The translations under genes and the position numbers were made by a program. From assembly GCA_026393975.1 (NCBI GenBank), contig JAPKZD010000020.1, positions 1-56,997 on the forward strand: a stretch of DNA of 56,997 nucleotides, given 5' to 3'. Origin of the DNA: Candidatus Aminicenantota bacterium (GTDB lineage: Bacteria; Acidobacteriota; Aminicenantia; Aminicenantales; Saccharicenantaceae). Within the stretch, counting starts at the first letter, position 1, and each line of letters begins with the position of its first letter. Positions 3,527 through 7,894 of the stretch are shown here, one piece after another. Below the pieces are notes generated by a model. It saw only the letters and a program-made list of their open reading frames with translations, did not search any database and was not told the DNA's origin.

Positions 3527-6500
3527 ATGGCAAGAACAAATTTCGTTCAACCTAGGAGTTTTACATGTTTTCTGATTGGAGGCAGTTCTTTATTGACGAG
3601 ATGCGCAGAAATACTGCTGAGTCATAAATGTCATATTAATGGCATTATCACTGAGGATTTTGGAAATCAACAATGGGCCGCAGAACATGACATTCCATAT
3701 TACGATCCGCGCGCGGATTTATTCGCATTAATGAGCAACTATCCTTTCGATTACTTATTCAGTATCGTAAACAGCTACGTTCTTCCTGAGAACATCTTGA
3801 AGTTACCAAAAAAGCACACCATTAATTATCATGATTCTTTATTGCCTAATTATGCCGGAGTTTATGCTACGTCCTGGGCGATTATGAATCAGGAAAAGAT
3901 GCATGGTATCACCTGGCATCTGGCTACCCAGAAAGTTGATGCGGGAGATATCGTCAAACAAGATAAAGTAGAAATATCCCCCACGGATACAGCCTTTGTC
4001 CTCAATGCAAAATGCTATGAAAAGGCCGCTTCGATTTTTAACAATCTGGTAGAAGATTTAATCTATGATCGAATTGAGTATGTTCCACAGGAGCACACAA
4101 AACGCACATATTATTCGCTATTTAAACGTCCAAAAGCAGCCTGTTTCTTTTCCTTCAATCAGGAAGCCGCCGAGATTGAAGCCTTTGTTCGTGCCTTAAC
4201 GTTTGGAAAGTTCTATCCAAACAGATTGGGCTGCCCAAAGATAGCTATAGATAACCACTGCGTTATTATTAAGAAAATATCATGCCTGGCTTCAATGTCT
4301 CGCAAAAAGGCGGGCACTATTATTGATATCGACAATGACTCAATATCCGTTTCCACTTTAACTCATGATGTGGCCATCGAGCAAGTGAATAGTATCGATG
4401 GTTTGTCACTATCCATCAAGGATTTTGCAAAGAAACATCATCTCAAAAAGGGTTATCGTTTCAAGGATATGGATCCTGAACTCTATGAGCGCGTGACAGA
4501 GCTAAATACACAAATTTGCAGGTATGAAACATACTGGGTAAATAAACTTAAAGAATGTCAGCAGGTCAGCGTTCCCTATATGAATTCAGAGCGTTTGAAT
4601 CTTCGCTCAGAATCGGTCATCTCTCGATTTCAGGTTCCTGAAGAATTTTCCTCTTATCTGCATAGAATTGACGAGGGCATGGATATAAGTTGCAGTCTCA
4701 TAGCAGCTTTTGTTGCCTACCTAGGACGGTTATGCTCGACAGGCCGATTTGATATAGGATTTAAACAGGCAGACAGCAGGAATTTGCCGAATGGTATTTT
4801 TGCCCCTTTTGTGCCCCTGCGGGTTGAGCTGGATTTCACCCGGACGTTCACTGATTTCAGAGAAGTCATTCAAAAAGAAATGAATGAGATCAGTAAGAAT
4901 AAAACATTTCTCCGTGATGTGGTGTTTCGATATCCTGAACTCAACCCTGAATCAGATGCCCAAATCATTTCATCCCCTTCTGTGTCAATTGTCCTAGTTA
5001 AAAAGCCGGAAGATTTTCAAAACGATGTGAGTTCTGGGCTGTCAATGGTTATTTCTCAAAACACAGGTGATTGCTTCTGGGCATATCGAGCAGAGCTATT
5101 GAATAGTGTCGATGCCAGAAGAATGACGGAGCAATTCGCTTGCTTTCTGCATGGCATTACTGCTGATCCAGAGCAGCCGATACAATTTCTTCCTCTGATG
5201 GGCAGCGATGAATTAAAAAAAATACTTGTCGATTGGAATTCTGACAGTGTTGACTTTCCCCAAAATGCGTGTATTCACCAGCTCTTTGAAGAATGGGCAG
5301 AAAAAAGGCCGGAGGAAATAGCCGTAGTTCTTGAAGACCAACAGTTATCGTACCAGCTGCTTAACACCAGGGCAAATCAGCTCGCTCATTATTTAATCAA
5401 AGAGGGGGTAGGACCGGACGTCCTTGTCGGTTTGTGCCTCGAACGCTCCATCATGATGATTGTGGGCATGTTAGGCGTTCTTAAGGCTGGAGGAGCTTAT
5501 GTTCCCTTGGATTCCAGATATCCAAAAGAACGTCTCATTTATATGCTCCAAGATGCACGTGTGCATGTTCTAATAACCCAGGAGAAATTAGCGGGCCTCT
5601 TTGTGGATCTGCAAATACCGGTGGCCTGCCTTGATACAAATGCGGATAAGCTCCCCTCAGAGAGAAAAGAGAATCCGGTCCGTGAAATGTCCAGTGAAAA
5701 TCTGGCTTATGTGATTTACACGTCTGGATCGACAGGTCAATCCAAAGGCGTGATGATCACGCACCGCAACGTAGTGGGCTTTATTTTCAGCTACAAACAG
5801 GTGACATTGGATGGGGAAAAACGCATCGGGACCTCTGTTGCGCCTTTTAATTTCGATACTTCTGTAGAAGAGATCTATTCGACTCTTTGCTTTGGCGGCA
5901 CGCTTCATATCGTTCACCCGGAAAAAAGCGTGGATGTCGAATATTTTGCACGATATTTGGTTGATAATCGAATCACCACGACCTATATCTTACCGGATTT
6001 TCTTAGCGGCGTTGCCAGGAATTTAGAAAAGGCCCGTGACGAGATGAATCTCAAATGTGTCATAACAGGTTTGGCACCCAAGAGAGAAAATGCGCTGCAG
6101 AGTTTCCGCAATTTATCCGAGAAAATCAGAATATTGAATGCTTACGGTCCAACTGAGGTCACATATGGCGCGACCGCCTTTGATTTTAAATCATCCACAG
6201 ACCCGGACCGGTTCGCCCCCATTGGCGTTCCTTTTCCCAATTATGAAGTTTTTATCGTGGACGCCCGTTTAGAGCCGGTTCCTGTCGGTATTGCGGGTGA
6301 GCTTCTCATAGGAGGCGTGGGGCTGGCGAGAGGTTATCTTAACCAGCCGGAACTCACTGCCCAGAAGTTTATACCTCATCCATTTAAAGATGAACCAGGA
6401 AGTCTTCTTTACAAAACAGGTGACCTTTGCCGTTTTCTGCCGGATGGGAACATTGAGTTTCTTGGCCGCCTCGACCATCAGGTGAAGGTTCGCGGCTATC

Positions 6501-7894
6501 GGATTGAACTTGGAGAAATCGAAGCATTTCTTTTGAAACATCCTGGCGTAAAGAAGGCTTTTGCTTTAGCCAGAGAGGACAAACCCGGGAACAAGCGTTT
6601 GGTCGCATATATCGTCACAAACCAGAAGCCGAACCCGACGATTAGTGAGCTGCGCAATTTCTTAAAGAACAAATTGCCTGACTATATGGTGCCTTCTGCC
6701 TTTGTCATATTGGATAGCCTGCCGTTGATGTCCAACGGCAAAGTGGATATTCATGCGCTACCGGCACCCGATAAATTGCGCCCTGTTTTGGAAAGTCCCT
6801 ATTTGGCCCCTCGAACGGCTATTGAAAAAAGACTTGCAGATATCATGGCGGAAGCTCTTGATATGGAGGAAGTTGGCGTCCAGGATGATTTTTTTGAACT
6901 TGGAGGCGATTCCTTAATGGCGGTAGGATTAGTCGCAGAAATTGAAAAAGCCTTCTCAATAAAACTGCCGCTATCGATCCTCTTTCAAGCATCGACTATT
7001 GAGCAGCTCGTAAATGCTATTCAACTGGGAGAGTCCGATAGATCTTGGGCCTCGCTGGTAGAGATACAGCGTGGTGGTTCAAAAACGCCTGTCTTTTTTA
7101 TACATAGTAGTACAGGCGATGTCTTGTTTTATCGAGATTTAGCTCGTCATTTAGGAACGGAACGGCCGGTTTTCGGATTGCAATCCCAGGGTTTAGACGG
7201 GAAGCAGCCAGTTTCGGAGCGAATTGAAGAGATGGCCGCTCATTATATCGAAGAGATACGGGCCGTTCAACCCAAAGGTCCTTATTTTCTAGGAGGGTAT
7301 TGTATGGGTGGGTTAATCGCTTATGAAATGGCTCAACAGCTCCATAAAGATGGACAAGAAGTTGGCTTCCTGGCGATGATTGACACGTACAACTATAACG
7401 AGATTCCTCGACAGCGTTATTTTGGTGAAGGCCTTGTTTTAAAAATGCAAAAACTAGAGTTTCATTTGGTCAATATTTTGCGGCTTAGTCCTAGAAATCA
7501 GCTTGATTACTTAATGAAAAAGTTAAGAGTAGCGGTAGGAAGAGAGTTTGCCAGGTTTTCTTTGAACTTATCCAATTTATTGAAAATGATTCAGCCTGGC
7601 AGCGAGAATATGAAACCCAACGTCTTCCTTGAAGATAGAAACGAAAAAGCCAGTTTTGCTTATAAGCCTCAAGATTATCCTGGGGAAGTGACGCTGTTCC
7701 GGCCTCATAAAAATTACAGTTTTGTTCGCGATCCGCAAATGCGATGGGGGGATTTGGCCAAAGGCGGATTGGAAATTGTAGAACTTCCGGTCAATCCAGG
7801 TGGCATATTTGTTGAACCTTATGTGCGGATTTTGTCATCTAAACTGAGGGAACGTTTGGAGAAGTTAGACTACGACATGAAAGGAAAAGCTTGA
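3527..7894 (+). CDS. Nonribosomal peptide synthetase, formyltransferase-half C-A-T-TE
   Basis: The 1455-residue enzyme has these domains in order: a formyltransferase-like N-terminus (about 10-300) with the N100-x-H102 / HDSLLP motif and D138 in DAGDI; the C-terminal half of a condensation domain (about 335-560) with no HHxxxDG motif; an adenylation domain (about 575-1070) with YTSGSTG at 731, YGPTE and TGD; a carrier domain with GGDSL and the phosphopantetheine serine S1129; and a thioesterase (about 1175-1450) whose nucleophile motif is GYCMGG, Cys1259. A formylated aminoacyl or short acyl-amino acid product is plausible. Base composition (42% G+C in one sampled line) and codon use differ sharply from the neighbours, so I infer horizontal transfer. 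No phosphopantetheinyl transferase or partner module is in the window. Confidence 0.92.
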   Translation: MARTNFVQPRSFTCFLIGGSSLLTRCAEILLSHKCHINGIITEDFGNQQWAAEHDIPYYDPRADLFALMSNYPFDYLFSIVNSYVLPENILKLPKKHTINYHDSLLPNYAGVYATSWAIMNQEKMHGITWHLATQKVDAGDIVKQDKVEISPTDTAFVLNAKCYEKAASIFNNLVEDLIYDRIEYVPQEHTKRTYYSLFKRPKAACFFSFNQEAAEIEAFVRALTFGKFYPNRLGCPKIAIDNHCVIIKKISCLASMSRKKAGTIIDIDNDSISVSTLTHDVAIEQVNSIDGLSLSIKDFAKKHHLKKGYRFKDMDPELYERVTELNTQICRYETYWVNKLKECQQVSVPYMNSERLNLRSESVISRFQVPEEFSSYLHRIDEGMDISCSLIAAFVAYLGRLCSTGRFDIGFKQADSRNLPNGIFAPFVPLRVELDFTRTFTDFREVIQKEMNEISKNKTFLRDVVFRYPELNPESDAQIISSPSVSIVLVKKPEDFQNDVSSGLSMVISQNTGDCFWAYRAELLNSVDARRMTEQFACFLHGITADPEQPIQFLPLMGSDELKKILVDWNSDSVDFPQNACIHQLFEEWAEKRPEEIAVVLEDQQLSYQLLNTRANQLAHYLIKEGVGPDVLVGLCLERSIMMIVGMLGVLKAGGAYVPLDSRYPKERLIYMLQDARVHVLITQEKLAGLFVDLQIPVACLDTNADKLPSERKENPVREMSSENLAYVIYTSGSTGQSKGVMITHRNVVGFIFSYKQVTLDGEKRIGTSVAPFNFDTSVEEIYSTLCFGGTLHIVHPEKSVDVEYFARYLVDNRITTTYILPDFLSGVARNLEKARDEMNLKCVITGLAPKRENALQSFRNLSEKIRILNAYGPTEVTYGATAFDFKSSTDPDRFAPIGVPFPNYEVFIVDARLEPVPVGIAGELLIGGVGLARGYLNQPELTAQKFIPHPFKDEPGSLLYKTGDLCRFLPDGNIEFLGRLDHQVKVRGYRIELGEIEAFLLKHPGVKKAFALAREDKPGNKRLVAYIVTNQKPNPTISELRNFLKNKLPDYMVPSAFVILDSLPLMSNGKVDIHALPAPDKLRPVLESPYLAPRTAIEKRLADIMAEALDMEEVGVQDDFFELGGDSLMAVGLVAEIEKAFSIKLPLSILFQASTIEQLVNAIQLGESDRSWASLVEIQRGGSKTPVFFIHSSTGDVLFYRDLARHLGTERPVFGLQSQGLDGKQPVSERIEEMAAHYIEEIRAVQPKGPYFLGGYCMGGLIAYEMAQQLHKDGQEVGFLAMIDTYNYNEIPRQRYFGEGLVLKMQKLEFHLVNILRLSPRNQLDYLMKKLRVAVGREFARFSLNLSNLLKMIQPGSENMKPNVFLEDRNEKASFAYKPQDYPGEVTLFRPHKNYSFVRDPQMRWGDLAKGGLEIVELPVNPGGIFVEPYVRILSSKLRERLEKLDYDMKGKA

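Follow-up and report, generated by a model that had tools for sequence, protein, structure and literature searches.

The window considered here is a stretch of 56,997 nucleotides from Candidatus Aminicenantota bacterium (phylum Acidobacteriota; assembly GCA_026393975.1, contig JAPKZD010000020.1, positions 1 to 56,997 of the forward strand), and it contains a gene for a synthetase of a single module. Five domains are arranged in the order formyltransferase (F), half condensation domain (hC), adenylation (A), thiolation (T) and thioesterase (TE), and their locations are shown in Table 1. The open reading frame (ORF) is intact, without a stop or frameshift in 1455 codons, and the coordinates and domain list of the original prediction, made from the letters alone, are correct. 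Pfam identifies Formyl_trans_N at residues 83-171 (E 2.6e-18), Formyl_trans_C at 203-304, AMP-binding at 587-938 (2.7e-81), AMP-binding_C at 997-1072, PP-binding at 1102-1165 and Thioesterase at 1188-1289 (9.5e-26). F has the Asn, His and Asp residues of its active site, and is followed in the same protein by A and T domains with intact core motifs, including the phosphopantetheine Ser1129 in T. No Bac_luciferase match was found by Pfam in the window protein, and the A domain is uninterrupted. We propose that the gene probably encodes a stand-alone formylating initiation module.

Table 1. Features of the synthetase gene and its surroundings in the window
Feature	Coordinates	Strand	Details
Single-module synthetase gene, F-hC-A-T-TE	3527..7894	+	1455 aa; GC 0.438, GC3 0.43
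Formyltransferase (F) domain with Fmt-type C-terminal subdomain, aa 9-305	3551..4441	+	Pfam PF00551/PF02911; ArnA/Fmt structural match
F active-site N100 and H102	3824..3832	+	D138 at 3938-3940; invariant in family alignment
Half condensation domain (hC), C-lobe only, aa 308-567, no HHxxxDG	4448..5227	+	Pfam, AlphaFold2, VIA-align to EntF 166-443
Adenylation (A) domain, aa 582-1078	5270..6760	+	Specificity code DTEYIGAYGK
Thiolation (peptidyl carrier, T) domain, aa 1098-1165	6818..7021	+	Phosphopantetheine Ser1129 at 6911-6913
Thioesterase (TE), aa 1186-1441	7082..7849	+	Cys1259 (7301-7303), Asp1286 (7382-7384), Pro1424 (7796-7798) in catalytic-His position
Low-GC, probably foreign segment between GC-rich genes	3150..8050		
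tRNA-Arg(acg) bordering this segment	8060..8134	-	Site variable among congeners

The condensation part had been predicted to lack its N-terminal half together with the HHxxxDG motif, and the Pfam span, a motif search and structure prediction all bear this out. The Pfam Condensation match (residues 291-565; E 2e-5, which falls under the curated cut-off) covers just profile positions 143-454 of 456, and HHxxxDG, searched for in the window protein, is absent. An AlphaFold2 model of residues 1-578, built on an alignment with 52 relatives (predicted local distance difference test, pLDDT, 92.8; predicted template modelling score, pTM, 0.89), gives residues 9-313 a complete fold of the Fmt/ArnA type (Z-scores 25-27, maximum 27.2; 2.5-3.9 Å over ~280-297 residues). 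For residues 308-567 the counterpart is the C-lobe of the EntF condensation (C) domain (EntF 166-443), with a Z-score of 20.5 (245 residues, 5.4 Å); another EntF entry aligns over 235 residues at 2.9 Å. The table of PDB matches for this model is dominated by formyltransferases, and hC was therefore re-tested together with A in a second model (residues 300-1082; pLDDT 85.8, pTM 0.83). As a unit, hC-A superposes on residues 200-961 of McyB-C1A1 (620 residues, 2.2 Å, Z 54.2), as well as on the other C-A didomains of Txo2 (643 residues, 3.1 Å) and LgrA module 2 (636 residues, 2.8 Å). The C-lobe is thus predicted to pack on the A core as it does in C-A didomains, and in the models hC occupies the C-lobe place of a normal elongation module, with the formyltransferase replacing the N-lobe. 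A complete but divergent C domain is ruled out, as both sequence and model contain the C-lobe alone.

What might such a half domain do? C domains carry their catalytic His in the N-lobe, and since that lobe is missing hC is not expected to form peptide bonds; it is most likely a scaffold rather than a catalyst. First, the lobe that would carry HHxxxDG is absent. Second, hC stays with F in all 89 loci placed in a tree, from Pseudomonadota, Acidobacteriota, Chloroflexota, Cyanobacteriota, Planctomycetota, Myxococcota, Bacteroidota and others, and never with HHxxxDG, which fits a retained scaffold better than decay. Recurrence of the same half domain in these 89 loci also argues that the architecture is neither chance nor an assembly break, and together with the intact ORF rules out a frameshift or assembly artefact. 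A literature search found no description of a half or truncated C domain beside a formylation domain, although few subscription papers were reached and hC may already be described.

The family is large and widely dispersed. Scanning bacterial contigs, one genome per species, with an F-hC alignment as query gives at least 573 relatives; the same scan with the single window protein as query gave no matches. The formyltransferase catalytic residues N100, H102 and D138 are invariant in 53 of 53 aligned members. There are four main arrangements. The first begins multimodular synthetases, as in Photorhabdus (where these are long), Xenorhabdus and Mycetohabitans. In the second, the MupA/Atu3671 type, the A domain contains a monooxygenase, which Pfam detects in Ruegeria; other cases of a split A domain were grouped by length with few scanned, and two of those few carry a methyltransferase-like match instead. 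The third is F-hC-A-T without a TE, and the fourth is the single-module F-hC-A-T-TE gene, which accounts for 14 of the 89 analysed loci and does not form one clade. A search for the architecture had been suggested, on the premise that homologs in large clusters would count against a stand-alone enzyme; in fact, some homologs belong to large assembly lines and others are stand-alone single modules. At two loci F-hC is internal, in the orders C-A-T-C-F-hC-A-T (L042:10001-11614) and C-A-T-F-hC-A-T (L052:2586-4265), where N-terminal formylation is not expected. A thermodesulfobacteriotal protein (L041:9935-15628) has the order F-hC-A-T-T followed by a nitroreductase-type domain.

The link from this module type to a formylated product comes from Xenorhabdus szentirmaii. 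Its product szentiamide is an N-terminally formylated depsipeptide of six amino acids (PMC3343279), and PMC11547657 names the producer strain, DSM 16338, in its reference list. The sole full F-hC locus found in DSM 16338 codes for a protein of 6840 residues, F-hC-A-T-(C-A-T)x5-TE, with six A domains; the other F-hC match in this genome is short and partial. Six modules for six residues, in the sole F-hC gene found in the genome, make this the probable szentiamide synthetase, and on this basis of module count and uniqueness it is very likely that the half-C type of module really formylates. Like the window protein it begins with F-hC-A-T, has a half C without HHxxxDG and is 32% identical over F-hC; unlike it, five more C-A-T modules precede the TE.

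Formylating initiation is itself a known kind of module, here in a variant with an Fmt C-terminal domain and a half C, and as a stand-alone gene. The initiation module of LgrA, F-A-T, formylates a carrier-bound amino acid, and among solved chains those of LgrA score best against the A domain of the window protein. However, the A domain of LgrA starts near residue 200, too early for an Fmt C-terminal domain and a half C to fit in front of it, whereas in the window protein 260 residues of half C lie between F and A; LgrA also belongs to a long assembly line. The expected contrast with long formyl-initiated lines therefore holds for linear gramicidin, but not generally, as the long synthetases of X. 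szentirmaii and Photorhabdus begin with an F-hC-A module. MupA/Atu3671-family proteins, such as that of Ruegeria conchae, share the F-hC N-terminus, but have the luciferase-like monooxygenase inside A, a polyketide synthase-type neighbour and no TE in the same protein. Methionyl-tRNA formyltransferase and the ArnA formyltransferase domain resemble the window F over the complete fold including the C-terminal subdomain (Z 25-27), but are free-standing or fused to other enzymes and have tRNA-bound Met or a sugar nucleotide as substrate. Closest in domain order and length are the single-module genes of Legionella, Bradyrhizobium elkanii, Pleurocapsa and Acidobacteriota, which differ in being less than 40% identical over F-hC, in their specificity codes and mostly in having a normal TE His.

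If the window protein acts as proposed, the A domain would activate one amino acid and load it onto the T domain, and the N-terminal F would then N-formylate the thioester-bound amino acid with formyl-tetrahydrofolate, giving an N-formyl-aminoacyl thioester. The hC would be what remains of an ancestral C domain, its C-lobe, after a whole Fmt-type formyltransferase took the place of the N-lobe and its catalytic His; it would preserve the C-lobe/A platform and hold F where the other half of the C domain would sit. That the protein formylates and loads one amino acid before releasing it was the original proposal, and the F, A and T machinery agrees with it, whereas clean release by the TE is not supported. 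Type I thioesterases have a triad of Ser or Cys, Asp and His; in alignments the window TE has Cys1259 in place of the usual Ser and Pro1424 in place of the catalytic His, with Asp1286 kept, and no displaced general base is evident. With a Cys/Asp/Pro triad simple hydrolytic release appears doubtful, and the acyl group may instead be passed to an acceptor in trans, be released slowly or non-hydrolytically, or not be released.

The change in the TE need not be a lone accident. In a sample from the same phylum all 23 Ser-type enzymes retain the His, while in the six Cys-type enzymes this position is never His (in two of them the next residue is), and in a wider set 4 of the 12 Cys-type TEs, among them that of the window protein, are without it. 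Judged by these alignments, the window TE can be placed in a recurrent class of Cys-type enzymes whose triad is altered, and because such TEs recur in other synthetases the change may be functional. The TEs with a Cys nucleophile and no His at the usual place were seen in other nonribosomal peptide synthetases (NRPS) of the phylum (L141-L144, L147 and L154).

Several further points, beside the doubtful release, weigh against a functional formylating module. First, a stretch of the A domain near position 301 is unusual, with ITGLAP where relatives mostly have GGE. Second, the specificity code, which the original prediction proposed to interpret, can be interpreted only in part: it reads DTEYIGAYGK and gives no confident substrate match; E781, an acidic pocket residue that we take to occupy the position of W239 in PheA, could point to a basic side chain. 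Third, a phosphopantetheinyl transferase was to be looked for in the genome, and one is present, but this sole enzyme found in the 95%-complete genome is an AcpS-like protein of 129 residues that may not prime the window T domain. Fourth, the gene is alone, and no gene for tailoring, export or an acceptor adjoins it. Finally, szentiamide is assigned to its synthetase by module count and uniqueness rather than by knockout, and enzyme activity of the window protein is argued from sequence and predicted structure.

The setting of the gene suggests an origin elsewhere. Its GC content is 44% (43% at third codon positions, GC3) against about 63% for the region and a GC3 of 81-84% in two neighbouring genes. 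The congener G162 is 96-98% identical on both flanks of the variable stretch at the tRNA-Arg gene, but its own segment there is different and shorter, and the tRNA end is duplicated as a 50-bp direct repeat (L128:7670-7719 and 8665-8714) such as an integrating element leaves. In the window no such repeat was found, and no integrase was identified. The other 12 genomes of the genus contain no condensation-type domain, in other examined genomes of the family F-hC matches score no higher than ordinary formyltransferases, and the nearest relatives of the window copy are just 39% identical over F-hC. Low GC content, a variable tRNA-Arg site, absence from congeners and the distance to the nearest relatives together indicate a probable recent horizontal acquisition. 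Contamination is unlikely, as the contig runs into sequence 96% identical to G162.

This origin raises the strongest rival explanation for the window copy, that it is a non-functional transplant: a recently acquired foreign piece of secondary metabolism separated from its partners, whose TE would be dead and for which the genome would offer no suitable phosphopantetheinyl transferase. Its foreign composition and insertion site, its isolation as the only condensation-type domain in the genus, the His to Pro change and the AcpS-like enzyme would all be explained. No elongation modules were found downstream or elsewhere in the 95%-complete genome, which has no other condensation-type domain and only remote relatives of the A domain. 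Nonetheless 1455 codons persist without a stop or frameshift, the F, A and T motifs are intact and the altered TE may be functional, and we consider a dead transplant improbable, though not markedly so. The original description of a single module with intact F triad, A, T and a true half C is upheld, in a genome without partner NRPS genes.

The contexts of other single-module copies suggest what stand-alone enzymes could do. The next gene on the same strand encodes a PAS hybrid sensor kinase in Legionella lytica and L. feeleii, and in L. nautarum the synthetase gene is followed by a short ORF that resembles, by eye, a kinase remnant; we presume the Legionella A code DAWQFGLIDK to be Gln-like. 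These synthetases with a PAS-HisKA-receiver-Hpt kinase or its apparent remnant (L008:7974-14571, L082:9977-16927 and L076:10019-14897) are a possible synthase-sensor pair. By analogy the window gene could make a small formylated signal or capping molecule that needs no other biosynthetic genes, and four further copies (L028, L034, L035 and L040) likewise stand alone among ordinary genes. The window gene has no adjacent kinase, however, and its TE lacks the His kept by the three Legionella TEs; we regard this role as unlikely for it. At a gemmatimonadal single-module locus (L060) a Sfp-type phosphopantetheinyl transferase is adjacent.

Acidobacteriota copies have a different setting. Three of them (L026, L031 and L036) lie in similar clusters of the polysaccharide or sialic-acid type, in which the sampled genes include polysaccharide export, Wzz/kinase, NeuB, UDP-N-acetylglucosamine 2-epimerase and a cytidine monophosphate (CMP)-sugar transferase (scanned in L031, and the transferase in the other two as well); in L026 and L036 an asparagine synthase-like gene follows. 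A copy from the same phylum with an extra domain in A (G038) adjoins asparagine synthase, a Wzt-type ATP-binding cassette transporter and glycosyltransferases. Genes of the F-hC-A-T-TE type in polysaccharide or nonulosonic-acid clusters, often adjacent to an asparagine synthase-like gene, were also noted at L165-L166. The window enzyme might thus be a formyl-aminoacyl donor decorating a sugar of a surface polysaccharide, but its gene is outside any cluster of this kind and NeuB has no match in the genome, and we regard this as the least probable of the alternatives. A hidden gene cluster is ruled out on the same two observations, none being seen beside the gene.

A broader and tentative proposal, which we hold with low confidence, is that stand-alone F-hC-A-T-TE enzymes form a dispersed class of synthases that each formylate one amino acid and supply N-formyl-aminoacyl groups outside peptide assembly, as a kinase-sensed signal in Legionella and for sugar decoration in Acidobacteriota, the window copy being a mobile member whose Cys/Pro TE would act as a transacylase or holding site and not as a hydrolase.

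A 2022 review lists just three peptides formylated by F domains (PMC8949500), against the at least 573 loci of the F-hC type alone in our contig scan. The formylating module proposed here points to a recurrent route of fusion in which a formyltransferase replaces the catalytic lobe of a C domain and the other lobe is kept as a chassis, and the F-hC design would offer protein engineers a defined fusion point for making N-formylated products. One-residue formylating enzymes, some of them encoded beside sensor kinases or surface-sugar genes, would moreover form a widespread group.

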